This document shows, one piece after another, positions 23,707 to 36,840 of a DNA stretch of 39,101 nucleotides. The stretch is from Candidatus Omnitrophota bacterium (lineage in GTDB: Bacteria; Omnitrophota; Gorgyraeia; Gygaellales; Profunditerraquicolaceae): positions 1 through 39,101 of the forward strand of contig JACROS010000080.1 of the NCBI GenBank assembly GCA_016214325.1, read 5' to 3'. Under the pieces are notes generated by a model, which worked only from the letters and a program-made list of their open reading frames with translations, was not told the DNA's origin and did no database searches. A program made the translations under genes and the position numbers. Each line of letters opens with the position of its first letter. The first letter of the stretch is position 1.

Positions 23707-24948
23707 ATGCATAAAAAAAGACTCGTCATTACCGGCGTAGGCGTGGTGTCTCCGATTGGAATTGGAAAGGATCAGTTCTGGCACAGTCTTTGGGAAGGCC
23801 AGGCTGGATTTAGGCCAATCAGCCTTTTTGATGCCTCAGATTTAAAGGTAGGAGTTGCGGGAGAGATTTCTGATTTTAATCCGCAAGAGATTCTGGGTAA
23901 AAAAGGCTTAATTGATCTTGACCGCGCCACAACGCTTCTGTTATCTTCTGCAAAATTCTGTCTACAAGATAGTCAAATAGAATTAACTAATATAAATTCT
24001 GTAATAACTGGTATCTGCGTCGGAACTACCTTTGGAAGCCTCAATAGCCTTTCTGAATTTGACGAGCAGTCTCTTCAGGAAGGCCCGAATTTTGTTAATG
24101 CCTCCAGATTTCCTAATACAGTAATTAATTCTCCGGCAAGCCGTTTGGCCATTCGTTATGGCGTTAAAGGGCCGAATGCTACTGTTTCTACTGGTTTTTG
24201 CGCTAGCCTTGATGCTTTGGAGTATGCAGTGGATACGATTAATTCCGGCAGGGCAGAAAGAATAATTGTCGGCGGGCTTGAAGAAATGTGCGTTCAGACC
24301 TTTCTTGGTTTTTACAGGTTGGGTTATTTGTCCGGCCTGAAGAATAATTATGAGCCGGTAAGCTGTCCTTTTGACAAGAGAAGAGATGGCATAGTTTTTT
24401 CCGAGGGTTGTGGAATTTTTATGGTTGAGGAACTTGACGCAGCGCTTGATCGTAACGCTCATATTTATGCAGAAATTCTCGGTATTGGTTCTGATTTTGA
24501 TCCATTTCGTTTACATAAGTTTAATCCTAAGGCAAGCGGCATGATTGAGGCTATGTTTTCTGCTTTAGAAGATGCCAGTATTGAGGCAGGCGAAGTGGAT
24601 TGTATTTATGCCAATGCTAATTCAACGCCAGATGGTGATTGTGTTGAGTCAAGAGCAATTAAAGAAGTTTTTCAGAAACAGGCGGATAAAATTCCAGTAA
24701 CAGCAATAAAATCAATGACAGGTGAGTCGTTTAGTGCTGGCGGAAGTTTTTCTCTTGCTGGGGCTTTGGGGACTCTTGAGACTGGGTTAATTCCTCCGAT
24801 AGTTAATCTTGAAGAGGCAGATGTAAAGTGCAGGCTTAATTTTGTATATGATTCAGCTAGAATGGATAATGTTGATAAAATAATGATTAATGCTTTTGGG
24901 CCCAACGGAGCAAATAGTGCGTTGGTTATAGGGAGATATTCTGAATAA
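23707..24948 (+). CDS. Beta-ketoacyl synthase homologue 1, altered active site (chain-length-factor-like?)
   Basis: 413-residue thiolase-fold protein of the FabF type (RLVITGVGVVSPIGIG at the start, GRAERIIVGG, FSEGCGIFMVEE). The nucleophile region reads VSTGFCASLDALEYA with Cys165, but spacing from the usual STACASG is shifted by one. The first catalytic His, normally in NAHGTST, is replaced: ANANST (Asn303). The second, normally SMxGH, is SMTGE (Glu340). Lys335 is kept. Loss of both His argues against ordinary decarboxylative condensation, so this may be a non-condensing partner subunit, like the chain-length factor of type II polyketide systems. GGTGAG precedes the ATG. It overlaps the FabZ-like gene by one base. 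Confidence 0.85.
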   Translation: MHKKRLVITGVGVVSPIGIGKDQFWHSLWEGQAGFRPISLFDASDLKVGVAGEISDFNPQEILGKKGLIDLDRATTLLLSSAKFCLQDSQIELTNINSVITGICVGTTFGSLNSLSEFDEQSLQEGPNFVNASRFPNTVINSPASRLAIRYGVKGPNATVSTGFCASLDALEYAVDTINSGRAERIIVGGLEEMCVQTFLGFYRLGYLSGLKNNYEPVSCPFDKRRDGIVFSEGCGIFMVEELDAALDRNAHIYAEILGIGSDFDPFRLHKFNPKASGMIEAMFSALEDASIEAGEVDCIYANANSTPDGDCVESRAIKEVFQKQADKIPVTAIKSMTGESFSAGGSFSLAGALGTLETGLIPPIVNLEEADVKCRLNFVYDSARMDNVDKIMINAFGPNGANSALVIGRYSE

Positions 24949-25385
24949 TGATTCAGCTTGATATACAGCAAATAATGGAAAGTATTTCGCAGAGATTTCC
25001 GATGCTGTTTGTTGACAGGATTCTTGAGCTTGATCCGGGGAAGCAGGTTGTAGCGATTAAAAATGTAACTATGAATGAGCAGTTTTTTTCGGGGCATTTT
25101 CCGGATGCGCCAATTATGCCCGGAGCTTTAATTGTTGAGGCAATGGCGCAGGCATCAACATTTCTTTTTTATGATCCGAATAAGCCGCAGCAAAAACTAG
25201 ATTTTTTTCTGGGAGTAATTAAAGATGCTCGTTTCTTTAGGTCTGTTGTTCCTGGAGAACAAATAAAAATAGTTGCGCAGAGTATTAGGCTTGCTGAGGA
25301 CAGCGCTTATGTTAAGACGAGTGCTACTGTTGATGATGCCAAGGTTTGTGATGCAGAATTGGTTTTTGTGCGGAGAAAGAAATGA
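24948..25385 (+). CDS. FabZ-like 3-hydroxyacyl-ACP dehydratase
   Basis: 145-residue hotdog-fold protein. The catalytic segment FSGHFPDAPIMPGALIVEAM contains His50 and Glu64 in the positions used by FabZ, and RFPMLFVDRILELDPG matches the FabZ N-terminus. It should dehydrate 3-hydroxyacyl-ACP to trans-2-enoyl-ACP. Embedded between ketosynthase genes and with start and stop codons overlapping both (TAATG, ATGA), it is likely dedicated to this locus rather than the housekeeping fabZ. Confidence 0.9.
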   Translation: MIQLDIQQIMESISQRFPMLFVDRILELDPGKQVVAIKNVTMNEQFFSGHFPDAPIMPGALIVEAMAQASTFLFYDPNKPQQKLDFFLGVIKDARFFRSVVPGEQIKIVAQSIRLAEDSAYVKTSATVDDAKVCDAELVFVRRKK

Positions 25386-26481
25386 AGAGAATTGTTGTCA
25401 CTGGGCTCGGGGCAGTTACTTCTATTGGTTTGGGGTGGAAAGATTTCTGGGTTAATCTTTTAGAGGGAAGATCGGGTATTTCTAAGGTTACAGTTTTTGA
25501 TACTTCAAAACATGTAACGCATGTTGGAGGAGAAGTTAAGAACTTTCGTCCCGAAGATTTTATCCCAAGGACTAAGATTAAATATGTGGGCAGGGCCTCG
25601 CAATTGGCGATTGCTGCGACAAGAATGGCGTTATCAGACGCAAAGCTTGAAAAAGAATTCTATACTAGGGTAAGGACATCAGTTTGTTTGGGCACAACTA
25701 TGGGTGAAATCAGGTCTGTTGAAAATGCAGATCACTCTTGGATTAATTCTAGTAAAGATAAGCACCAGATTGATCCTTTTGAAGTGTATCGTTCTGCGGT
25801 AAATAATATTCCTTCAAATGTAGCGATTGAGTTTCACTTAAAAGGAAGGAATCGTATTTTTACTACCGCTTGTGCTTCAGGAAATTATGCTATAGGTTAT
25901 GGATATGATCTTTTGTGCTCTGATAAAACGGACCTTGTTGTTGCCGGCGGCTCTGATGCTTTTTCCTGGATAGCTTTTACGGGTTTTAATAAGGTAAGCG
26001 CAACTGCTCCAGAAAGGTGCCAGCCTTTTGACAAAAATAGAAAAGGCATGATTCCTGGAGAAGGCTCGGGTGTTTTAGTGCTTGAGAGCTTGGATTCTGC
26101 GCTTTTGCGGGGTGCGCCTATTTATGCAGAAATTTTAGGTTATGGTTTAAGCTGTGACGCTAATCATATGACCAATCCAAATCCCGACGGAGTAGCTGCT
26201 TGTATGCGCAATGCCATGCTTAATGCCGGGATAGTTCAATTAAATCTATGCTGGGCCATACCATGGGAGCAGCTTCGGCAATTGAGGCAATTACCTGTTG
26301 CCTTGCTTTAAAGGACCAGGTGCTTCCTCCGACGATAAATTACGAAACTCCGGATCCTGATTGTGATATAGACTGTATTCCTAATGCCGCTAGAAAGCAA
26401 AAAGTTGAGGTTATTTTAAATAATGGTTTTGCTTTTGGCGGGAATAATGCTTGTCTTGTATTAAAAAAGTTTGTCAACTAA
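25382..26481 (+). pseudogene. Beta-ketoacyl synthase homologue 2, frameshifted by an internal deletion
   Basis: FabF-type ketosynthase. The first frame carries RIVVTGLGAVTSIGLG, the nucleophile segment TTACASGNYAIG with Cys164, and FDKNRKGMIPGEGSGVLVLE, then diverges after NAMLNAGI at about 26232 and stops at 26311. A second frame resumes with [19 protein letters not shown] and runs to the normal end at 26481. Between them about 39 codons typical of FabF are missing, including the NAHGTST block with the first catalytic His. As written the gene cannot make an active enzyme. Conservation on both sides suggests the intact gene is a canonical condensing partner for homologue 1. It overlaps the FabZ-like gene (ATGA). 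Confidence 0.85.
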
Positions 26482-26496
26482 GAAAAGGAGGAAGCA

Positions 26497-26748
26497 ATGT
26501 TAGAGAATTTAGAAATGGAATTTAAGGAGATGTTATCAAAATTGACCGGCCTTGAGCCAACTGAAATTGGCGATGAGGATGATTTGTTTAAAGATCTAGG
26601 GATTGATTCTTTAAAGGTTATTGAGATTGCCACTCAGATTGAACGTAATTATAAGGTAGTGGTAAAAGATAGCCAGTTGGCGCGCCTGCGCACGGTAAAA
26701 GATGCGGTAACTTTTTTAAGGGACCTTTTGGAGAAAAAGAATGCCTAA
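26497..26748 (+). CDS. Acyl carrier protein
   Basis: 83-residue ACP: acidic, with the phosphopantetheine attachment serine in FKDLGIDSLKVIEIATQIE (Ser38). It has a strong ribosome binding site (AAGGAGG near 26485) and sits between ketosynthases 2 and 3, overlapping the latter by 8 bases. That supports a locus-specific carrier rather than the housekeeping AcpP. Helix 2 after the serine (KVIEIATQIE) resembles carriers of specialised type II systems, but this cannot fix the substrate. Confidence 0.92.
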   Translation: MLENLEMEFKEMLSKLTGLEPTEIGDEDDLFKDLGIDSLKVIEIATQIERNYKVVVKDSQLARLRTVKDAVTFLRDLLEKKNA

Positions 26749-28042
26749 AGAAAAAAGAATTGCCATCACAGGTATAGGCCCGCTTGCTTCCATTGGCACG
26801 GGCCGAAGAGAGTTGTGGCAGAATTTGCTCGCCGGTAAAACCAATATTAAACTGGATGAAGCCTATATTGATGATGAGCTTTGGGATAAATATCATTTTC
26901 ATAAGGTTGATAATTTTGATATTTCCCGCTTTGGCCTTGATAGAGGAGCTTTGGATTGGATTAAAGACTGGAAGCAGGGCGATGAAATAAAAGATTTATT
27001 GTATCTGCTGGCTGTGATTAAGCTTGCTATTGATGATAGCGGCTTGGTGTATAATCCAGATGCTGAAAGTGATTTTGGTTTGGTTTTAGCTCATGAAAAT
27101 ATGGCGCTGATTCCGTTTTTGTTTAAGGTCAGCGAAACCGCCTATAACATTATGAGTGATAAATCAAAACAGCTTACTAAAAAGAAGTTTTACGACGAGG
27201 TTTACCGGCTTTGCCTTAAGGCAGGTTATGACGTTCAGCCGTTTATGACTTTGTTTCATGTGGCAAAAGTTTTTAATGTCAGGCAGCATTCATTATTTAT
27301 TTGTAATGCTTGTGCTTCTGGGTTGTATGCTTTAGAAACTGCTAGTGAAATGATTCATAGTAACCAGAATTCTTCGGTTATTGTTGCGGCTTCTGATTTT
27401 CCGGATATTTATAAGTATTTATGGTTTAGGGATCTGGGAATTTATTCTAAGGATGGAATCTGCAGGCCGTTTTCCAAAGACAGTAACGGCCTTGTTTTTG
27501 GCGACGGCGGCGTTGCAATTGTGATGGAAGATATGGAACACGCAAAAAAGCGCAATGCTACGATATATGCGGAATATTTAGGTGGTGGTTTTGCGTTAGA
27601 GGGGTGGCAGGTTACCGTGCCAAAAGTAGGAAGTGATTCTTATCAGAACGCGATGTTAAAGGCGTTGGAACAAAGCAAGGTAAAGAAAGAAGAAATAGAT
27701 TTACTTTGCCCGCATGGAGTGGGTTCGCATGTTATTGATTATTATGAATCAAAGGCATTTACTGAAATTTTTGGTGATAATCCTAAAAAACCGCTTATCA
27801 CTGCATTTAAGCCTTATGTTGGGCATAATTTAGGAGGCAGTGCTCTGCTTGAAGTGGCGATTTTGTTGTTATGTCTTAGTAATGATACAATTTTACCTAC
27901 CCTTAATTCCAGCAATTCTAATCCCGCCTATAAAATCCAACTGGTGCAGAAAGTAAAAAAAGCCAAACTTAAAACGGTAATGAAGGCCTGTGCTGCCTTT
28001 GCCGGTTTCAATTCCGCGGTGGTATTTGGGAAAGCGTGGTAA
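26741..28042 (+). CDS. Beta-ketoacyl synthase homologue 3
   Basis: 433-residue divergent ketosynthase with a complete catalytic set: Cys191 in ICNACASGLYALE, His325 in LCPHGVGSH and His362 in FKPYVGHNLGGSALLE, with Lys357 before it. The N-terminal third departs strongly from FabF, with an insert rich in Asp, Trp and Lys (for example DRGALDWIKDWKQGDE). The opening RIAITGIGPLASIGTG is typical. It may act on a different chain from the other two synthases. It ends the tight five-gene set; no terminator is obvious in the 100-base gap that follows. Confidence 0.88.
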   Translation: MPKEKRIAITGIGPLASIGTGRRELWQNLLAGKTNIKLDEAYIDDELWDKYHFHKVDNFDISRFGLDRGALDWIKDWKQGDEIKDLLYLLAVIKLAIDDSGLVYNPDAESDFGLVLAHENMALIPFLFKVSETAYNIMSDKSKQLTKKKFYDEVYRLCLKAGYDVQPFMTLFHVAKVFNVRQHSLFICNACASGLYALETASEMIHSNQNSSVIVAASDFPDIYKYLWFRDLGIYSKDGICRPFSKDSNGLVFGDGGVAIVMEDMEHAKKRNATIYAEYLGGGFALEGWQVTVPKVGSDSYQNAMLKALEQSKVKKEEIDLLCPHGVGSHVIDYYESKAFTEIFGDNPKKPLITAFKPYVGHNLGGSALLEVAILLLCLSNDTILPTLNSSNSNPAYKIQLVQKVKKAKLKTVMKACAAFAGFNSAVVFGKAW

Positions 28043-28150: not shown

Positions 28151-28864
28151 ATGGATAAGAAATTACGCAATATTCAATTAGAAGTTTTGAAATTATTCTC
28201 AAATAAAGCAAAGAAGTTTGCTCTTTGCGGTGGCACTGCGCTTGAGTTATGTTATTTAGATCATCGTTTTTCTGTGGATCTGGATTTTTTTTCTCCTGAA
28301 TATGATGTTAAAGAAGTAGAAAAGTTGATTGCTTTTTTTGAGGAAAGGCTTAAAGTAAAGGTTAGGTTAGAGGCTGATTTTGTCAGGGCAGGAAGAGCCA
28401 GGATTAGGTTTTATACTATTCAATTGAGAGGGCAAAAGAGGCCGTTAAAACTTGATTTTGTTGAAGACGTCTTGATAAAAAGCCCTAAAATAAAAAAAAC
28501 CAATGGCATAAGGGCTTATTGCGCCAAGAATATTTATTTCCAAAAGATTGCTGCAGTAACAGGAACACAGTTTGAATTTGACCATATAGGAAGGCGAATT
28601 GCGCAGGGCAGGCAGGCAGCAAGAGATGTTTATGATATCTACATGCTTTCAAAGAAAATAATGCCTTTGCATTTATTCTTATCTATTGTGCCCGAGCAGT
28701 TTCGCCGAGGCATGGTTCATTGGTATAGATCTTTCTCTCGCAATGCGCTGAAGCTAGAGTTACTGGACCTTGATATTTACGATAAGAATTTTGATTCGCA
28801 AGAAATGATTCAATCCGTGGAAGATGAAATAAAATTGTTTGTGAGAAAAGGAATCCTTAAATGA
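28151..28864 (+). CDS. AbiEii/AbiGii-type nucleotidyltransferase (putative toxin, module A)
   Basis: 237 residues with the polymerase-beta-like nucleotidyltransferase core: CGGTALELCYLDHRFSVDLD supplies the GG-TAL and D-x-D signatures, KLDFVED is the third acidic motif, and ARDVYDIYMLSKK is the downstream family motif. AbiEii-type proteins act as toxins in type IV toxin-antitoxin and phage-defence modules; some add nucleotides to tRNA. The partner here is not AbiEi but an XRE-type protein starting 4 bases upstream of this gene's end. It has its own promoter and operator-like dyad. Confidence 0.85.
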   Translation: MDKKLRNIQLEVLKLFSNKAKKFALCGGTALELCYLDHRFSVDLDFFSPEYDVKEVEKLIAFFEERLKVKVRLEADFVRAGRARIRFYTIQLRGQKRPLKLDFVEDVLIKSPKIKKTNGIRAYCAKNIYFQKIAAVTGTQFEFDHIGRRIAQGRQAARDVYDIYMLSKKIMPLHLFLSIVPEQFRRGMVHWYRSFSRNALKLELLDLDIYDKNFDSQEMIQSVEDEIKLFVRKGILK

Positions 28865-29388
28865 AGATTGAAAAGTACTTTTGGAATTTGAGCGAAGCTG
28901 CATTAAATGAAACAAAAAAGATTATTAGAAAGCCAGCTCATCCTAGATTTGCCTCGGTTATGGTTAATTTTCTTTCAAGGTGCGATAAGCCGAAGGAATT
29001 ATTTTCTATTCTTTCCAGAGAAGAATTTGTTGCAAATTGGCCTCAGATTAGAAGGTATTGGGTCAAGGTGGAGCAGCAATCCGAGCTTAGAGATTGGTGG
29101 GAAACTATCTTTGAGCAGTTGTTGGAAGAACGAATGCAAAAACAGCTTAGGCCAAAAGGCGCGGCGCCGATTTTTTTAAAGGCAATCGGAATTCAAATTA
29201 GGCAAGCAAGGTTGGATAAAAAATTGAGCCAAAAAGATTTGTCTCTTATCGTTGGTATAAAGCAACCGGAGATATCTAAAATAGAAGACGGGAAGAAGAA
29301 TATTACGATTCTTACTTTGGCCAAGTTTTGCAAGGTATTAAAAATTGATAAAATTGATTTAACGAGTAGCCTTGGTGCCGGAAGATAG
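28861..29388 (+). CDS. XRE-type HTH protein with N-terminal unknown domain (putative antitoxin, module A)
   Basis: 175 residues. About residues 115-165 form a Cro/CI-type HTH: AIGIQIRQARLDKKLSQKDL followed by LIVGIKQPEISKIEDGKKN. Residues 1-110 are a helical, Trp-rich domain I do not recognise. The gene overlaps the nucleotidyltransferase by 4 bases and probably neutralises or represses it. The dyad over the module A promoter is its likely target. Confidence 0.8.
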   Translation: MKIEKYFWNLSEAALNETKKIIRKPAHPRFASVMVNFLSRCDKPKELFSILSREEFVANWPQIRRYWVKVEQQSELRDWWETIFEQLLEERMQKQLRPKGAAPIFLKAIGIQIRQARLDKKLSQKDLSLIVGIKQPEISKIEDGKKNITILTLAKFCKVLKIDKIDLTSSLGAGR

Positions 29389-29415
29389 AAGTCAATTTAG
29401 AATTAGGCTATTTTC

Positions 29416-29463
29416 TTGACAAAGGTTCAGGAAAGTGTAAACTTATATTGTATGTGAATTCAC
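29416..29463 (+). promoter_or_regulatory. Promoter and palindrome upstream of module B
   Basis: TTGACA at 29416-29421 with TAAACT 16 bases later (29438-29443); a TATATT also follows at 29444. A perfect 10-bp palindrome GTGAATTCAC (29454-29463) sits just before the first possible ATG at 29465. The AbiEi-like wing-helix protein may bind it. Moderate confidence, because the -10 box is not unique. Confidence 0.5.
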
Positions 29464-29464
29464 G

Positions 29465-30286
29465 ATGTTTCCGAGAGATGGAAAAATGATAAAAGAAAAT
29501 ACAAGACAATATTTGAGCCCCAGGGAAAAAGAAATCATAGCAAGGCTTGCTTATGAAAAGGTTTCGCTTGTAACAATAGAGCAGTTTGACAGGTATTTCA
29601 GGCTTCCTGGAAGAGCGAGGGAAAAGATACTTTTTAGGCTTAACAAACAGGGTATATTAAAAAAGATAAAGAAAGGCGTTTATTTTTATTCTTCTCTTGA
29701 ATCAGGGCCGGCAGGAAGCAATATAAATGAATTTCTGATCCCGCAGGTTTTTTTCCCGGAAGGCAATTATTATGTTGGTTATGCAACTATGTATAATTAT
29801 TATGGTTTTACTGACCAACTTTTTCAGGTTATGTATATTCTTAACACTTCGTTGCAAAGGGAAAGGGCTATGGGTAGGCTGCGTTTTAAAATGGTTAAAA
29901 TTTCCCCAAAGCGGATGTACGGGCTTGAAAAGATCAAGGTTAGAGATGTGGATGTTATTGTTAGTGACAAAGAGAGAACTCTTGTTGACTTAATTTATTT
30001 TCCAGAGCCCGTCGGTGGCATGGGAAAGGCGTTTGAGATATTAAGAGAACAGGTAGATAACGATAAGATAAATATTAAGAAATTGATAAAATATTCTTTG
30101 AAATTTCCGGATAGCTCGACAATTAAAAGAATCGGATATATTCTTGAGAAAGCAGGCCTGAATGATAAAGTTCTTATGCCTTTGTTGAAGGTGGCTAAAA
30201 AGACATCGTTAATTAATCTCTATCCTTCAAAATCGCGTAAGGGTAAGATAAATGGGAGATGGATGGTAATTGAAAATGCTGCATAA
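29465..30286 (+). CDS. AbiEi-like transcriptional regulator (putative antitoxin, module B)
   Basis: 273 residues (266 if the ATG at 29486 is used). The N-terminus YLSPREKEIIARLAYEKVSL and the following ILFRLNKQGILKKIKKGVYF form a winged-helix typical of AbiEi-family proteins. VSDKERTLVDLIYFPE and the helical C-terminal half match the remaining AbiEi architecture. In abiE systems AbiEi represses its own promoter and neutralises the AbiEii toxin. It overlaps the downstream toxin gene by 11 bases. Confidence 0.82.
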   Translation: MFPRDGKMIKENTRQYLSPREKEIIARLAYEKVSLVTIEQFDRYFRLPGRAREKILFRLNKQGILKKIKKGVYFYSSLESGPAGSNINEFLIPQVFFPEGNYYVGYATMYNYYGFTDQLFQVMYILNTSLQRERAMGRLRFKMVKISPKRMYGLEKIKVRDVDVIVSDKERTLVDLIYFPEPVGGMGKAFEILREQVDNDKINIKKLIKYSLKFPDSSTIKRIGYILEKAGLNDKVLMPLLKVAKKTSLINLYPSKSRKGKINGRWMVIENAA

Positions 30287-31148
30287 CGATAAAGGTGAAT
30301 TTATAAAAATTCTTGAAAGGACTTCAGCGCAGACGGGGTTCCCTCTGAGGCTTCTTGAGAAGGATTACTACATTACTGTGGTACTCTCAAAAATAAATAA
30401 GTTGAGCGGAGATCTTATTTTTAAAGGCGGAACGTGTTTAAGCAAAATTTATTATTCTTATTATCGTTTAAGTGAGGATATGGATTTTACCCTTAAACTG
30501 CCTGGTAATGCAACGAGGACAATCCGCAGCAATGCCATGAGGCCTATAAAGGAATTAATGAAATCTTTTCTTAAAGAATTTGGCATGAGCATAGAAGGTT
30601 TGGAGAGGGCGGGGCACAGGGAATCAACACAGTATATATTTTTCCTGGATTATAATTCAGTTGTGCTTAGCAAAAAGGAGTCAATAAAACTTGAAATAGG
30701 CTTGAGGTTTAATCCCGTTCTTTCGTCTGTAACAAAAAAAGTGAACCATAAGTTTTTGCATCCATTTACAAAAGAACCGCTTTTTGATGCTGGTTCTGTA
30801 AGTTGCCTTGCGGCAAAAGAGCTTGTCGCAGAGAAGTTGAGGGCTGCTGCGACGAGAGAAACAATTGCAGCCAGGGATTTCTATGATTTGGGTTATTTAT
30901 TAAAAGAAAAATTTGATTTTAAGGATAAAGTGTTTCTTTCGCTTTTTAAGAAAAAACTGGAAGAAGACAACTTTTCTCCTGATTTGGCAAAATACAAGGT
31001 TAATCTAGGCAGGACTGATAAGGAAATAGATGAAATGAAATCAAGGGTTGGGGATGAGTTGCTTTCTGTGCTGACCACTGATGAGCAGAAATCATTTGAT
31101 ATGCAGAAGATTTTGGATAAATTGAACAATGCGTTTGGCAACAAATAA
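30276..31148 (+). CDS. AbiEii-type nucleotidyltransferase toxin (module B)
   Basis: 290 residues from ATG 30276; a TTG at 30270 is also in frame. The family hallmarks are LLEKDYYITVVLSKI, FKGGTCLSKIYYSYYRLSED with MDFTL right after, IKLEIGLRF, and the C-terminal ELVAEKLRAAATRETIAARD. This matches the classic AbiEii proteins more closely than the module A enzyme does. With the AbiEi-like gene upstream it forms a complete abiE-type pair. Confidence 0.87.
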   Translation: MLHNDKGEFIKILERTSAQTGFPLRLLEKDYYITVVLSKINKLSGDLIFKGGTCLSKIYYSYYRLSEDMDFTLKLPGNATRTIRSNAMRPIKELMKSFLKEFGMSIEGLERAGHRESTQYIFFLDYNSVVLSKKESIKLEIGLRFNPVLSSVTKKVNHKFLHPFTKEPLFDAGSVSCLAAKELVAEKLRAAATRETIAARDFYDLGYLLKEKFDFKDKVFLSLFKKKLEEDNFSPDLAKYKVNLGRTDKEIDEMKSRVGDELLSVLTTDEQKSFDMQKILDKLNNAFGNK

Positions 31149-31172: not shown

Positions 31173-32579
31173 ATGGAAAAATACGATTACGACGCGATAA
31201 TTATTGGAGCAGGGATTGGAGGGCTTGTCTGCGGATGTTATTTGGCCAAGGCCGGCCTTAAGACGCTGATTGTGGAAAAAAACGCTCAGCCCGGCGGCTA
31301 CTGCACCTCTTTTACTCGCAACGGTTTTAAGTTTGATGCTTGTGTGCATTTTATTGGAAGTATGAGAGAGGGTGGAATAATAAAGAAGATTATAGGTAAT
31401 TTGGGTTTACAAAACGACATTTCAATTTTGAGAAATGATCCTTCTGATACAGTTTTTACCAAAGATTACAAGTTTTCGTTTTGGGAAAATATAGAAAAAA
31501 CAGTCAGCGAGCTTCAGTCCTGTTTTCCTTCTGAGAAAAAGTCTATTAAAGAATTTTTTAATTATATTTTAAAGATAGAAGGCTATGATTTTCTAGGTTT
31601 ACGTTGTAAAACGCTTCAGGATGTTTTTAGCAGTTTTTTTGTTGATAGACGATTGATGGCATTATTAGGATTTCCAATTCTAGGAAACTCTGGTCTTCCT
31701 CCTAGCCGAGTGTCTGCTATAAAGGCAATGACTTTATATAAAGAATTTATGGTTGATGGTGGTTATTATATGCCTAATGGTGTTCAGGTTCTACCGGAGG
31801 CGTTGGTGAAGAAAATCGTTGGATACGGTGGCACTGTTTTGTTTAATTCTCCAGTTAAGAAAATAATTGTTCGTAACGACAAAGCTGAAGGGGTAATTAC
31901 AAAACAAGGCACACAGTTTAGTTCTCGCTATGTTGTTTCAAATGCTGATACCCGACATACATTTTTTGACTTAATTGATCCTGATAATGCTCCAAAATTG
32001 TTGCAGAAGGCTTTGGTTGATTTGGAGCCATCTTTATCAATGTTCGCTTTGTATTTGGGAGTAAATGGCGAATTAACTAATTTCCCGCCTCATACAAATA
32101 TTTGGTATCTTAATGGCTATGATTTAGAAGATTATTATCGCTATAATCTTAAGGGTGATATAGAGGATATTAAATGGCTTTTAGCGTATTATAATCCTCA
32201 AGGTAAAACGATTCTTTGTTTTTTGAATGTCCCCTATGTTAATAAAAATTATTGGAAGGTTAATAGGATGAGAATTGAAGAACTTTTACTTAAGAAGATT
32301 GAAGAAGTTGTGCCTGGGACATTAAAGCATATTTGTTTCAAGAATAACGCAACTCCAGATACAATGTTGCGCTGGACTTCTAATTATCAAGGAGCTGCTT
32401 ATGGCTGGGCTGGGACTGTTGATCAATTCTCGGTCAGTGGCCTTTCTCAAATTACGCCAATAAAGAATTTATTTCTTACTGGTCATTGGACAACTTTGGT
32501 TCAGGGTGTTTCTGGTGTTATCTATTTAGGAGAGGTTACAGCAAAAACTATTTTGCGAGTAAAAGAGAAAAGACAATGA
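31173..32579 (+). CDS. Phytoene desaturase-like (CrtI/CrtN family) FAD-dependent oxidoreductase
   Basis: 468 residues. The FAD-binding dinucleotide fold is AIIIGAGIGGLVCGCYLAKA at residues 9-28, followed by VEKNAQPGGYCTSF. The family C-terminal motif is present as NLFLTGHWTTLVQGVSGVIY. Relatives desaturate, isomerise or saturate polyenes and carotenoids, so the substrate could be an acyl or polyene chain made by the ketosynthase genes; this is inference from context. No isoprenoid-specific enzyme such as CrtB is in the window. Its stop overlaps the histidine kinase start (ATGA). Confidence 0.85.
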   Translation: MEKYDYDAIIIGAGIGGLVCGCYLAKAGLKTLIVEKNAQPGGYCTSFTRNGFKFDACVHFIGSMREGGIIKKIIGNLGLQNDISILRNDPSDTVFTKDYKFSFWENIEKTVSELQSCFPSEKKSIKEFFNYILKIEGYDFLGLRCKTLQDVFSSFFVDRRLMALLGFPILGNSGLPPSRVSAIKAMTLYKEFMVDGGYYMPNGVQVLPEALVKKIVGYGGTVLFNSPVKKIIVRNDKAEGVITKQGTQFSSRYVVSNADTRHTFFDLIDPDNAPKLLQKALVDLEPSLSMFALYLGVNGELTNFPPHTNIWYLNGYDLEDYYRYNLKGDIEDIKWLLAYYNPQGKTILCFLNVPYVNKNYWKVNRMRIEELLLKKIEEVVPGTLKHICFKNNATPDTMLRWTSNYQGAAYGWAGTVDQFSVSGLSQITPIKNLFLTGHWTTLVQGVSGVIYLGEVTAKTILRVKEKRQ

Positions 32580-34681
32580 ATATAGTAATATTGATTTCCG
32601 GTATTTTTATATCTTCTACTTCCATTGTTCTTATGGCATTGTTAAGAATTTATGGTAGAAATAAGTTACATACAATTTGGTTTATGACTAATCTCGTTAT
32701 ATTTGTTTGGGGATTAGGCTGTTTTTTTATTGGGAAGTCATCGTCTATAGAAGAGGCTCGTTTTTGGTGGGGAGTAGCAGTTGCTGCAGGTGTATTTATT
32801 GCTCCTTGTTTTTATCAAACTACTTATATTTTTGCTGGAGTTAAACAGCCAAAACGCTTAATAATCTCCTATCTGCAGGCTTCTTTGTTCGCGATATTGG
32901 CACTCTTTACAGAAGTAACTTTAAATAAATATAGGATTTTGTTTGGGAATGTTTATTATCCTACGGGTAATCTAATGTTTTTCTTAATGATTATTTGTTG
33001 GGTTATTGTTATATTCTTAGGCACTAAAGTACTCTTTGATTTGTTAAAAAGATCAACTGGAAAACAACATTTGCAGACGTGGTATTTACTAATTGCTTTT
33101 CTTAGTGGATTTGTTGGTGGTGGAGCTACGTTGCTTCCAGCTTTTGACCTTCCGTATTCTTTTGTTTATCCCTTCGGCAACTTCGGCGTTGCAATATATG
33201 CGATTATCGGTACTTATGCTGTTTTAAGATATCAACTTCTAGACCTAAATGTCGCCTTTACGCGAGCTGGGATATTTGGGGTTGTTTATGCTTTAGTTTT
33301 GGGAGTACCTTTCTGGCTTGGTTATAAATATAATAAGTGGCAGTATTCGACGTGGTTTATGTTGGTTTTGGCTACCTCTGGCCCGTTCATCTATAGCTAC
33401 TTGCGCAGGCATGCAGAGAATATAATCCTTAGAGATCAGCGAAGATACCAGAAGGCATTGCGCGAGCTTGCTGAGACCATGACTCATATTCGCTCCTTGG
33501 ATGCATTAATCCAGATTATCACCACTACTATGGTTAATGCAGTTAAAGTGAATTTTGCCGCAATGTATGTTAAGGAAGAGGAGAGCAATTCTTATGTTTT
33601 AAAAAGTTGTAATCCTCAATCTGTGCAGGATAAATTTCCGGAAAATTTAGCTTTTGATTCTTCGGTTGTAAAATTTATTTTAGCTGAACAGCGCCTGATA
33701 ACTTGTGATGAGATAAAGAATAAGCCGGAAATTCCCTTAGAATGCGGTTTAGTGATTCCTTGTTTTATGGAAAATGACCTTTTGGCATTTATTGCCTTAG
33801 GGACAAAACCAAACAGCCAGATGTTTACCACCGACGATATCTTGGTTTTTGAAACCGTGTCTTATTCAGCGAGTATTGCTATTGAGAATTGCCGTTTTTG
33901 GCGCGAGATTGAAGATAAGCAAAGAAAGGCTCGTCTTCAGGAGATGGATACGTATTCATATTCTCTGGCGCATGAAATTGATAATCCAGTGCATATAATT
34001 CTTAACGAAACCACTTTAATTAAAGACTATCTTTTGAAAAATATCACTAATCCTCAGGAATACAAAGAAGCAGAGAGTGCTTGTGGTTTTACTATTGAAG
34101 CTGCTCGAAGAGTAGCGGGAATGGTTAAGGCAATCCGCGATTTTGGCTCGCCGGTAACCGGCAAGGCTTTGGCTTTAAAAATTGAAGATGTGGTAGAGAG
34201 TTTTTTTAAACTTTATTATCCGCAATTTAAGGATAAGGCGATTGTATTTGAGAAAATCTTTTTTGGAGATCTAGGTTTTATTCGAGGGATAAAGCCTGAA
34301 TTAATGCAGGTGTTGGTTATCTTGGCGAATAATTCAATTCACGCTATGCGCGAGTCTGAAATAAAGAAAATTACACTTAAGGTTGAGCCGGTTAACCATG
34401 ACAGGATAAGAATTGTTTTCTCAGATACAGGATACGGAATTAAAAAAGAAAATCTAGAAATTATATTCTTGCCTTTTACTACTACCAAAGCTTCAAGTGA
34501 AGGCACAGGTATGGGCCTTTATAATGCCAAGAAGATTATTGAGCGCCATAACGGAAAAATATTTGCTCAATCAGAAGGAAAAGGCCAGGGCGCTTGTTTT
34601 GTAATTGAGCTTCCCAAAGCTCTGGATGTTACTGAGGATGAGTTTTTAAAAGAGGGCCAGAAAGAAAAGCGGTTAATTTAA
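32576..34681 (+). CDS. Membrane sensor histidine kinase with 7TM-type N-terminus and GAF domain
   Basis: I start at ATG 32576, which overlaps the oxidoreductase stop (ATGA), giving 701 residues. Residues 1-280 hold about eight hydrophobic helices of the histidine kinase N-terminal multi-TM type. A GAF-like domain covers about residues 305-445. The phosphoacceptor is His466 in SLAHEIDNPVHIILNE. The ATPase domain has the N box (LANNSIHAM), G1 (DTGYGI) and G2 (GTGMGLYNAKKI). The layout resembles PrsK-type kinases. Directly downstream is a lone receiver protein, its probable partner. Confidence 0.88.
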   Translation: MNIVILISGIFISSTSIVLMALLRIYGRNKLHTIWFMTNLVIFVWGLGCFFIGKSSSIEEARFWWGVAVAAGVFIAPCFYQTTYIFAGVKQPKRLIISYLQASLFAILALFTEVTLNKYRILFGNVYYPTGNLMFFLMIICWVIVIFLGTKVLFDLLKRSTGKQHLQTWYLLIAFLSGFVGGGATLLPAFDLPYSFVYPFGNFGVAIYAIIGTYAVLRYQLLDLNVAFTRAGIFGVVYALVLGVPFWLGYKYNKWQYSTWFMLVLATSGPFIYSYLRRHAENIILRDQRRYQKALRELAETMTHIRSLDALIQIITTTMVNAVKVNFAAMYVKEEESNSYVLKSCNPQSVQDKFPENLAFDSSVVKFILAEQRLITCDEIKNKPEIPLECGLVIPCFMENDLLAFIALGTKPNSQMFTTDDILVFETVSYSASIAIENCRFWREIEDKQRKARLQEMDTYSYSLAHEIDNPVHIILNETTLIKDYLLKNITNPQEYKEAESACGFTIEAARRVAGMVKAIRDFGSPVTGKALALKIEDVVESFFKLYYPQFKDKAIVFEKIFFGDLGFIRGIKPELMQVLVILANNSIHAMRESEIKKITLKVEPVNHDRIRIVFSDTGYGIKKENLEIIFLPFTTTKASSEGTGMGLYNAKKIIERHNGKIFAQSEGKGQGACFVIELPKALDVTEDEFLKEGQKEKRLI

Positions 34682-34695
34682 TCGGAGGTAACAAG

Positions 34696-35088
34696 ATGAG
34701 TGATGCACCTTTAAAATTACTAGTGGTCGATGATGAAGAAGGTATAGTTGATTTTACTACAAGGATATATACTCGTAAGGGTTTTATTACATTTGGCGCT
34801 ACCGACGGGATAAAGGCAGTGGAAATATTTGAGAAAGAAAGACCTGGCATCAGCTTAATTGATGTGCACATGCCTTATTCGCCGATTGATGGCATTGAAA
34901 CTTTAAAGCGGATTAAGAATATTGATAAGAACGCCATTTGTATTATGGTTACGCGTATTACCGAGCAGGATACAGTGGCGGTTGCAAAAGAATTTGGCGC
35001 CAATGCTTATGTGCTCAAGCCTCTTGAGATGGAAGATTTGGATAAAGTAATCGCTGATGTTTTGAAAAAGGCCGAGGAGGCCAAATAA
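34696..35088 (+). CDS. Single-domain response regulator
   Basis: 130 residues, a receiver domain only. The acidic pocket is VDDEEGIVDF, the phosphorylation site is Asp56 in SLIDVHMPYSPIDGI, Thr86 is in CIMVTRI and Lys108 is in AYVLKPLEM. There is no DNA-binding output domain, so it must act by binding a partner. The preceding site CGGAGGT is a strong ribosome binding site. The next gene begins at the base after its stop, and is therefore the leading candidate for that partner. Confidence 0.9.
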   Translation: MSDAPLKLLVVDDEEGIVDFTTRIYTRKGFITFGATDGIKAVEIFEKERPGISLIDVHMPYSPIDGIETLKRIKNIDKNAICIMVTRITEQDTVAVAKEFGANAYVLKPLEMEDLDKVIADVLKKAEEAK

Positions 35089-35883
35089 ATGGCCAATCCT
35101 CTTCCTAATGAAAAAGAGCTTTATAAGAAAATCTATAGAGAGCGTATTTCTATGGATCCGCAAGTATGGGATCTTTTGTATAATCGGGTTGGTGATGACA
35201 TTACTACAATTAATTTATTGTGCCAACTGCATCTTTGTGATTGCCAGCCGATTCCGGTGCAGGAGGCAAGAAAGATTCTTACCTACACTCGGCATATAAA
35301 AGAATTATTGTCGCATATTACTAATATCTCCGACGATAATCAAAAAACTTTTCCTGTATTTGTAGGAACGGTGCCTTTGCATTCAATTTTGCGGGAGATG
35401 TTTACCCATTATATAGGAAATGATATTTATATGATTAATCTAATAGTAGAAGATGCCACTGATCCTATGCAGCCTGAGCCGCTTTCTGTTGCCTCAACCC
35501 AGAAAATTCTCAATCATACTCGTAGTATACGTGATTTTATGGATAAGCTCAGGCAGGCTACAATGCCCGGAGGAGTCCGGGTTACTGAAGATGATGAGCA
35601 GGAAACAAAAGATAAACCTAGCCTTGAGCTGGAGCTAACAAAGGAATCTGTTTTTGCGCGGGTTCGTAAGCTTTTGGCGCATGAATTTAATATGTCTGAA
35701 GAAAATATTCAGCTAGAGACACATTTTGCAAATGATTTGCAGCTTGATTCAGTTGATGCTATCCGTGTTGTAATGCTTCTTGAAGAAGGTTTTGGTTTTG
35801 AAATCCCCGACGATGATTATGAAGGAGTTGTGACAGTTGGCCAAGCTGTGGATTATGTATTAAAAAGATTAAAGGGTAACTAA
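35089..35883 (+). CDS. Protein with duplicated unknown domain fused to an acyl carrier domain
   Basis: 264 residues. The C-terminus (about 185-264) is an ACP domain: LAHEFNMSEENIQLETHF, the attachment serine Ser221 in DLQLDSVDAIRVVMLLEEGF, and FEIPDDDYEGVVTVGQAVDY. The N-terminal part holds two related copies of an unrecognised helical unit. VGDDITTINLL with ARKILTYTRHIKELLSHI (about residues 34-77) parallels IGNDIYMINLI with TQKILNHTRSIRDFMDKL (about 109-154). A charged linker separates them from the ACP. It sits directly after the receiver gene. I suggest the repeats dock on a signalling or synthase partner; this is inference. Confidence 0.85.
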   Translation: MANPLPNEKELYKKIYRERISMDPQVWDLLYNRVGDDITTINLLCQLHLCDCQPIPVQEARKILTYTRHIKELLSHITNISDDNQKTFPVFVGTVPLHSILREMFTHYIGNDIYMINLIVEDATDPMQPEPLSVASTQKILNHTRSIRDFMDKLRQATMPGGVRVTEDDEQETKDKPSLELELTKESVFARVRKLLAHEFNMSEENIQLETHFANDLQLDSVDAIRVVMLLEEGFGFEIPDDDYEGVVTVGQAVDYVLKRLKGN

Positions 35884-35907: not shown

Positions 35908-36549
35908 ATGGAAAAAGAAAATTTAGCCAGCTTAAAACAAAAGTTGCACGCGCTTTTAAATAAAGAAGCGCTAAAAAGAGGAAAATTTATTTTATCAAGC
36001 GGTAAAGAGAGTAATTATTATCTTGATGGAAGAGTGATTACTTTAACTCCGGAAGGCGCGTATTTGGTTGGGAGTATTATTTTAGAAATGACTAATCAGG
36101 ATAAGCTGGATGCAATTGGCGGCCCGACATTAGGAGCAGATCCGATTGTAGGAGCAGTTGCTTGTTTGGCTCATCTTAAAAATATTCCCATTAAAACATT
36201 TATCGTGCGTAAAGCTGCCAAGGAGCATGGTACTCAGCGCCAAGTTGAAGGGCCGGCATTAAAAGAAAAAGCCCGCGTAGTTTTGGTTGATGATGTGGCA
36301 ACGACGGGTAAAGCGCTTATCGAGGCTAAGCAGGCGCTTGATAAAATTGGGGTTATTGCTGAGAAAGCAATTGTAATTGTTGACTGCAATGAGGGCGGGG
36401 CAGAAAATTTAGCCAAAGTCGGCCTTAAATTAGAATCAATCTCTCGTCATTGTCAGGATCGTGATAAGCCAAGTTCGTCATTGCGAGGAGCGCGAAGCGC
36501 GACGAAGCAATCTCTTTTATGTCTGAACATCAAAGTTACGTCTACTTAA
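35908..36549 (+). CDS. pyrE: Orotate phosphoribosyltransferase with repeat-derived C-terminal tail
   Basis: Makes orotidine monophosphate from orotate and PRPP. Motifs: KRGKFILSSGKESNYYLDGR, GGPTLGADPIVG, TFIVRKAAKEHGTQRQVEG and the PRPP loop VVLVDDVATTGKALIEAK. Normal PyrE sequence ends near residue 185 (AKVGLKLESIS). The remaining residues, through SSLRGARSATKQSLL, are translated from the interspersed repeat at 36476-36514 and are not part of the family. The original C-terminus of about 10 residues appears lost. AAGGAAG precedes the ATG. Confidence 0.92.
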   Translation: MEKENLASLKQKLHALLNKEALKRGKFILSSGKESNYYLDGRVITLTPEGAYLVGSIILEMTNQDKLDAIGGPTLGADPIVGAVACLAHLKNIPIKTFIVRKAAKEHGTQRQVEGPALKEKARVVLVDDVATTGKALIEAKQALDKIGVIAEKAIVIVDCNEGGAENLAKVGLKLESISRHCQDRDKPSSSLRGARSATKQSLLCLNIKVTST

Positions 36550-36840
36550 TGATGAATAAAGCAAATACCGTAATATATACAGGCGTAACGAGTGATTTAA
36601 AAAAGAGAATTTATCAACATAAAGAGAATTTCGTTGATGGTTTCACTAAAAGATACAAAGTTCATAAGTTAGTTTATTATGAACAGTTTAATGATGTAGA
36701 AAATGCGATTTTAAGGGAAAAACAAATTAAGGGTGGTTCAAGGAATAAGAAATTAGCTTTGATTAGTTTAAATAATCCTAATTTTGAGGATTTATTTGAT
36801 AAGATTTGAGATTGCTTCGCCCTGCGGGCTCGCAATGACG
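36476..36840 (+). mobile_element. GIY-YIG ORF flanked by inverted interspersed repeats
   Basis: The left repeat (36476-36514) begins CGTCATTGCGAGGAGCGCGA and ends GACGAAGCAATCTC. The right one (36808-36840) is the reverse orientation, beginning GAGATTGCTTCGCCCTGCGG and ending CTCGCAATGACG. Both outer ends therefore read CGTCATTGCGAG inward and GAAGCAATCTC inside. Each repeat can fold into a hairpin, and each ends within a few bases of the ORF boundaries. The unit interrupts the end of pyrE. I recall CGTCATTGCGAG-type repeats as scattered in many bacterial genomes; that this unit moves as one cassette is inference. Confidence 0.6.
36519..36809 (+). CDS. GIY-YIG nuclease-domain protein
   Basis: 96 residues covering one GIY-YIG domain of the small YhbQ/UvrC-like type. 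The pair of tyrosine motifs is YVYLM and YTGVTSDL; the catalytic Arg lies in LKKRIYQHKE, and the Glu-containing stretch AILREKQIKG follows. Family proteins are metal-dependent DNA nucleases, often linked to mobile elements. The gene starts 5 bases after the left repeat, overlaps the pyrE extension and ends at the right repeat. Confidence 0.82.
   Translation: MSEHQSYVYLMMNKANTVIYTGVTSDLKKRIYQHKENFVDGFTKRYKVHKLVYYEQFNDVENAILREKQIKGGSRNKKLALISLNNPNFEDLFDKI

Follow-up and report, generated by a model that had tools for sequence, protein, structure and literature searches.

A stand-alone receiver, followed immediately by a protein in which two DHp-like helical hairpins are joined to a C-terminal acyl carrier protein (ACP), was found in a 39,101-nucleotide stretch of Omnitrophota DNA (hereafter, the window). 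The arrangement is real, recurrent and unusual, and the protein, as read from its sequence, appears to be a DHp-type phosphotransfer protein or phospho-reader equipped with an ACP. The gene pair itself had been described in the first-pass annotation of this DNA, and that part of the description stood; the kinase upstream, a second copy in the same genome (locus L057) and the receiver-unit core had been absent from it.

The gene pair and the upstream kinase

The features on which the analysis is based are the following:

23707-28042, + strand: acyl/polyketide-type set, comprising ketosynthase (KS), FabZ, KS (frameshifted), ACP (26497-26748) and KS
31173-32579, + strand: CrtI-like FAD oxidoreductase, directly 5′ of the kinase (NCBIfam crtI_fam 3.8e-39, below the model's cut-off)
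32576-34681, + strand: sensor histidine kinase of 701 aa, 7TM-GAF-DHp-HATPase, with the H-box AHEIDN and His466 (codon at 33971)
34696-35088, + strand: stand-alone receiver of 130 aa (Pfam Response_reg 3e-21), phosphoacceptor Asp56 (codon at 34861)
35089-35883, + strand: 264-aa protein, comprising DHp-like unit N, DHp-like unit C, a linker and an ACP
35155-35325, + strand: unit N, about residues 23-79, predicted helices 24-49 and 57-78, profile match 1.6e-13, Asn32 at the His position
35374-35568, + strand: unit C, about residues 96-160, predicted helices 99-123 and 134-158, profile match 2.1e-32
35407, + strand: codon of the candidate phosphoacceptor His107, in the H-box-like motif HYIGND of unit C
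35638-35880, + strand: ACP domain, residues 184-264 (Pfam PP-binding, NCBIfam ACP, ACP helices in the model), with Ser221 (codon at 35749)

The product of 34696-35088 presented the receiver fold of Response_reg (PF00072) with Asp56, Thr and Lys in place, and no output domain was detected in it by Pfam. The coordinates 35088/35089 left a gap of 0 between this gene and the 264-aa ORF, the stop codon of the former being followed by the start codon of the latter, and Shine-Dalgarno-like sequences were found upstream of both. The first 160 residues of the 264-aa protein consisted of a single unit present twice, since the internal duplication reached a local score of 66 vs 22 ± 4 in shuffles, and none of 2000 shuffles attained that value. 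The C-terminal domain matched PP-binding (PF00550) at 9.3e-11 over residues 191-257, with 42.3 bits against a cut-off of 20.8, as well as the NCBIfam acyl carrier protein model at 1.7e-20 (PRK00982.1-4, 73 vs a cut-off of 66), and the phosphopantetheine serine, in the motif DSV, corresponded to Ser221. The first-pass annotation was thus borne out in what it had said of the receiver devoid of output domain, of the zero spacing, of the N-terminal unit repeated twice and of the C-terminal ACP with its serine. In a genome of the same genus (G291), the counterpart of the 264-aa protein was 89% identical, and the codon differences were mostly synonymous (88 synonymous vs 28 non-synonymous, the latter clustered in the linker); therefore, the whole ORF is under selection and constitutes a constrained gene.

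The kinase encoded at 32576-34681 was matched by the Pfam families HisKA_7TM (1.8e-7), GAF_3 (9e-7) and HATPase_c (3e-20). Its start is likelier to be the ATG at 32576 than the TTG at 32486; the ATG overlaps the stop codon of the upstream CrtI-like gene, with which the kinase probably forms one operon.

Likeness of the duplicated unit to DHp hairpins

The assignment of the unit as DHp-like is held with high, though not complete, confidence, and its sequence makes it most likely a histidine-phosphotransfer hairpin of this type devoid of a kinase domain. AlphaFold predicted two antiparallel helical hairpins (24-49/57-78 and 99-123/134-158; pLDDT 88.7, pTM 0.84), which, judging from the predicted helices, would pack into a four-helix bundle, and the full-length model placed a disordered linker (168-179) between the unit pair and the ACP. 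When the unit profile was run against 384 genomes, it retrieved its own family and six weaker matches (E 3e-5 to 9e-4), all of them histidine kinases of one type; the H-box (GLSHQINNRFYALSLIAGD) was the matched segment, its His and Asn falling opposite those of the unit. These kinases were matched again, at E 2.2e-5 to 1.2e-3, when a local set of 2154 ORFs was searched, and the next non-family matches, at 0.03, were the H-boxes of a second kinase type (HEIGNPLN). The motif HYIGND of the unit fell in register with SHQINN of the kinases, so that the predicted hairpin, the H-box His and the Asn/Thr four residues on, by which a DHp domain is recognised, were all present. Alignment by hhalign gave a probability of 93% (E 3e-7) against the first kinase family and of only 3-10% against other kinases, the hairpins being in register even so in mixed sets. 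Against a relay reading, the kinase likeness thus seems to derive mainly from one kinase family.

It could be argued that the unit, a helical bundle unrelated to kinases, does no more than dock to receivers, and that its kinase likeness reflects chance among amphipathic helices. Such a bundle would agree with the failure of Pfam HisKA and Hpt models to match the unit even at lax E-values, with the output of Foldseek, which yielded generic helical bundles only (e.g., FAT and GIT1 domains, at E 0.19 and above), and with a control in which the reversed profile obtained E 0.0012 on another helical protein. However, the best kinase match surpassed the reversed control about 50-fold, the best of 40 column-shuffled profiles obtained no more than E 0.024, the eight non-family matches that came after the best one were all kinase H-boxes with the register unchanged and came from two kinase types, and a two-component context was found throughout, leaving this explanation quite improbable.

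Among curated families, no match to HisKA, HisKA_2 or HisKA_3 was obtained for the unit at E up to 5-10, and the unit is therefore called DHp-like and not a HisKA member. The absence of a Pfam Hpt match sets it apart from monomeric HPt domains, and no HATPase match was found by Pfam in the 264-aa protein, in which a degenerate ATPase-like domain of the Spo0B/ChpT type is thus absent. The earlier description of the unit as unrecognised held insofar as the N-terminal pair had no Pfam or NCBIfam model at a significant E-value, but its resemblance to the DHp hairpin of histidine kinases means that it is not wholly novel; the domain matched by the repeats was a related one, the kinase DHp. A recurrent domain family, blank in the searched libraries, is now described. 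Pfam hints to HisK_N (0.03-0.13) and Methyltransf_12 (0.12-0.2) were dropped, as they were seen in one or two members only, and PDB sequence matches at E 0.1 and above were taken as chance.

In Spo0B and ChpT, two hairpins come together as a four-helix bundle, and ChpT cannot autophosphorylate (PMC3433190). The 264-aa protein is similar to Spo0B of Bacillus and ChpT of Caulobacter in having predicted helical hairpins, an H-box-like His and a receiver that would feed it, a comparison that covered likeness to DHp domains. In contrast with those proteins, which are homodimeric and possess a C-terminal ATPase-like domain of degenerate or atypical form, it has no such domain, carries two hairpins per chain and has an ACP attached. 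The unit also resembles the DHp domain found in 7TM-GAF histidine kinases within the phylum (H-box SHQINN): the profile match runs along the hairpin and brings His and Asn into register. It differs from these kinases in the absence of a HATPase domain and in an N-unit that is usually devoid of His.

Recurrence of the unit and its histidine

Searched with a single sequence, 285 genomes of the phylum yielded the unit in 22, with marginal scores for the weakest of these, and a profile search gave a match at E up to 0.001 in 35 of 384 genomes of the class, four of which (G127, G149, G202, G476) were matched through kinases alone. Altogether, 47 loci with the unit were read, the upstream side being known in 43, and in 39 of these a receiver lay directly 5′ of the unit, across 28 genera and 10 families, with Asp, Thr/Ser and Lys kept in all 39 receivers. 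The gene pair noticed in the window is thus a recurring one. The first-pass annotation had, however, taken the ACP for the probable partner of the receiver, and only part of this was retained: an ACP beside a receiver does recur, in 11 of the 47 loci and within one family, but the conserved partner is the duplicated unit. A direct functional pair of receiver and ACP as the core of the system was ruled out, as the unit, and not the ACP, comes after the receiver throughout. The closest named relatives belonged to Candidatus Omnitrophota, as did all six loci found by scanning contigs of named genomes, a scan that reaches close relatives only.

In many of the loci, a 7TM-GAF kinase was encoded further 5′ of the receiver, and additional receivers were the next genes after the unit in many of the relatives' operons, the longest of which presented the order histidine kinase - receiver - small 83-aa protein - receiver (- receiver) - unit - ACP - receiver - receiver. 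Beyond the ACP-linked loci, the unit occurred alone or heading PAS-GGDEF-HD proteins. The unit pair stood at the head of large signalling proteins in L075:6154-9024, L076:3-2387 and L079:3-2036, and those of L075 and L076 were PAS-PAS-GGDEF-HD proteins by Pfam, which ties the module to c-di-GMP.

Of 18 single-unit proteins, 17 had His at the position of the candidate phosphoacceptor. In double proteins, the C-unit had it in 24 of 29 and the N-unit in only 3 of the 19 that could be scored; among the 11 ACP-linked loci, it was conserved in 10. By analogy with the bundle of Spo0B and ChpT, single-unit proteins would form homodimers, and a double protein would act as a pseudo-dimer in which one His is active. 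This pattern bears on whether the unit carries phosphate at all. In DivL, a pseudo-histidine kinase, a DHp-type bundle has a stand-alone receiver as partner; Tyr takes the place of the His, and the protein, which acts neither as kinase nor as phosphatase, binds DivK~P (PMC4211667). The bundle of the 264-aa protein could similarly bind or dephosphorylate the phosphorylated receiver and relay its state to the attached module, whether ACP or PAS-GGDEF-HD, carrying no phosphate itself. That Asn111 and Asp112 are better conserved than His107 would fit such a reader, as would the position of the unit at the head of PAS-PAS-GGDEF-HD proteins, and the five of the 29 double proteins that lost the His of the C-unit could be readers of this kind. 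Nevertheless, a His without a role would be expected to be lost freely, whereas it was preserved at the frequencies given above, and many operons have more receivers downstream, as a relay requires. DivL itself differs in retaining CA and PAS domains and in having Tyr where most units retain a His. A DivL-like role, the chief alternative to the relay, is rated unlikely, and a phosphate-carrying role of the unit is somewhat favoured.

The small protein located between receivers in the long operons, of 83-88 aa and with the motif LFHKxGNxHN, was found in L062:4453-4704, L063:4275-4526, L064:7120-7371, L066:1836-2096, L068:3650-3910 and L073:7029-7295, and related stretches were fused to receivers in L088, L090, L091 and L111. 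Its alignment to the DHp domains of kinases had a probability of 77% (E 2e-5), and it is probably another DHp-like relay module. In 16 loci (L060, L062, L063, L067, L070, L072, L083, L085, L088, L090, L091, L105, L106, L107, L111 and L115), a gene for an XRE-type HTH plus cupin protein, convergent with the operon, was found about 0.4-1.2 kb past the unit gene, and it is a possible transcriptional output of the operon.

The acyl carrier protein and the proposed relay

The ACP occupies the place where other members of the family have an output or partner module. It was fused to the unit in five loci (the window, L057, L058, L059 and L060) and was the gene after the unit in six (L062, L063, L064, L065, L067 and L070), amounting to 11 of the 24 loci of the window's taxonomic family, from 9 genomes and 8 genera; outside that family it was absent from most loci, which speaks against the relay reading. 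Its fold and the DSV motif are those of type II ACPs (AcpP family), from which its attachment to a signalling module distinguishes it. The unit-linked ACPs formed a group (FastTree support 0.86) separate from the family's housekeeping ACP, which is nearly invariant, in a tree whose inner branches were weakly supported; the same group held L069 and the ACP upstream of FabZ-CrtI-histidine kinase-receiver-unit in L071, a locus from a different family within the taxonomic order. The serine was kept in 10 of the 11 unit-linked ACPs. The exception was L057:5336-6136 (G000:C23), the second histidine kinase-receiver-unit-unit-ACP copy of the same genome, 41% identical, in which Leu replaces the serine, so that this domain cannot perform the usual carrier function.

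Genes of acyl metabolism adjoined the kinases in several loci. CrtI-like genes lay 5′ of the kinase in five further loci (L057, L058, L062, L068 and L071), and in L072 a KS-ACP-thioesterase group stood beside it. In the window, the KS-FabZ-KS-ACP-KS set, also kept in G291, is likely the context of the kinase operon, from which AbiE genes part it. The first ketosynthase of this set had Asn and Glu at the sites of two expected catalytic His, a composition that we take to resemble that of a chain-length factor. It is plausible that acyl metabolism and the kinase are connected.

The 264-aa protein as a whole may be a phosphorelay intermediate similar to Spo0B or ChpT with a dedicated ACP, tied to the acyl/polyketide enzymes nearby, a proposal to which we give an even chance. 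Its tandem hairpins would form an intramolecular four-helix bundle devoid of an ATP-binding domain and acting like Spo0B or ChpT. The 7TM-GAF kinase would phosphorylate Asp56 of the stand-alone receiver, which would exchange phosphate with His107 of the bundle, from where it could pass to further receivers. AcpS, whose gene is present in the genome, would modify Ser221, making the fused ACP a dedicated carrier for an acyl or polyketide chain from the neighbouring enzymes (KS, FabZ, CrtI-like), and relay and acyl metabolism would meet on one molecule. We infer the packing of the four helices, the phosphotransfer, the serine modification, the acyl-relay coupling and the direction of this coupling, the acyl-relay link being drawn from the fusion, its recurrence and the lipid enzymes adjoining the kinases. 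A functional coupling of acyl state and relay is put forward only tentatively; equally speculative is the form it could take, in which the acyl group on Ser221 would gate the phosphate flow or phosphorylation of His107 would gate the use of the acyl chain.

The ACP might, alternatively, be purely biosynthetic and co-expressed, in an operon that would produce a lipid or polyketide signal as well as sense it, the fusion serving stoichiometry or location with no allosteric coupling. The separate ACP gene found at the equivalent operon position in the six loci listed above, and upstream in L071, is in line with this idea, as are the KS, FabZ, CrtI-like, thioesterase or methyltransferase-serine palmitoyltransferase-like genes 5′ of 7TM kinases and the long disordered linker that separates the unit from the ACP. 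On the other hand, the acyl set of the window has its own ACP (26497-26748), the ACP of the 11 loci lies directly after the unit and between receivers, not after the enzymes, and L057 kept the fused domain despite the lost serine, which suggests a role beyond carrying. Co-expression alone is a serious possibility, placed a little short of even, and the confidences stated here overlap, as it can hold together with the relay role.

In E. coli, ACP has been proposed to report fatty-acid status to the signalling enzyme SpoT (PMC3340395). There, a free housekeeping ACP binds the ppGpp enzyme, whereas here a dedicated ACP is built covalently into a two-component module. Searches of the open-access literature found no description of an ACP fused to a phosphorelay protein, and we know of no described system in which lipid-chain synthesis is linked to two-component signalling. 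A coupling of acyl state and phosphorelay would thus be new in principle. If true, the proposed relay would connect acyl-chain synthesis physically and directly with two-component signalling. It would also represent a minimal phosphotransfer protein built from DHp-like hairpins alone, as a single-unit homodimer or a one-chain pseudo-dimer, and a testable route for the poorly known Omnitrophota to tie lipid or polyketide production to sensing.

Further observations concern the genes around these operons. A fusion of a Methyltransf_20 methyltransferase with a serine palmitoyltransferase-like domain was encoded directly 5′ of the 7TM kinase in L073:9819-11849, and methyltransferases 5′ of the 7TM kinase were also found in L063, L067, L080 and L087. 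Quorum sensing by alpha-hydroxyketones (CqsA/LqsA) was not adopted as an explanation, the only aminotransferase-type gene 5′ of a kinase, that of L073, being closest to serine palmitoyltransferase. AbiE-type toxin-antitoxin genes were inserted in the interval that separates the ketosynthase set from the kinase operon, at 28151-31148 of the window and in L058:6826-7659, and in G291 an AbiEii gene sat between kinase and receiver. The second ketosynthase of the window (25382-26481) was frameshifted, about 110 bases found in G291 being missing, through either true decay or an assembly error. At 36430-36830, the end of a PyrE-like gene entered a repeat-like stretch (CGTCATTGCGAGGAGCG...) followed by a small GIY-YIG nuclease-like ORF, which together represent a possible mobile element.
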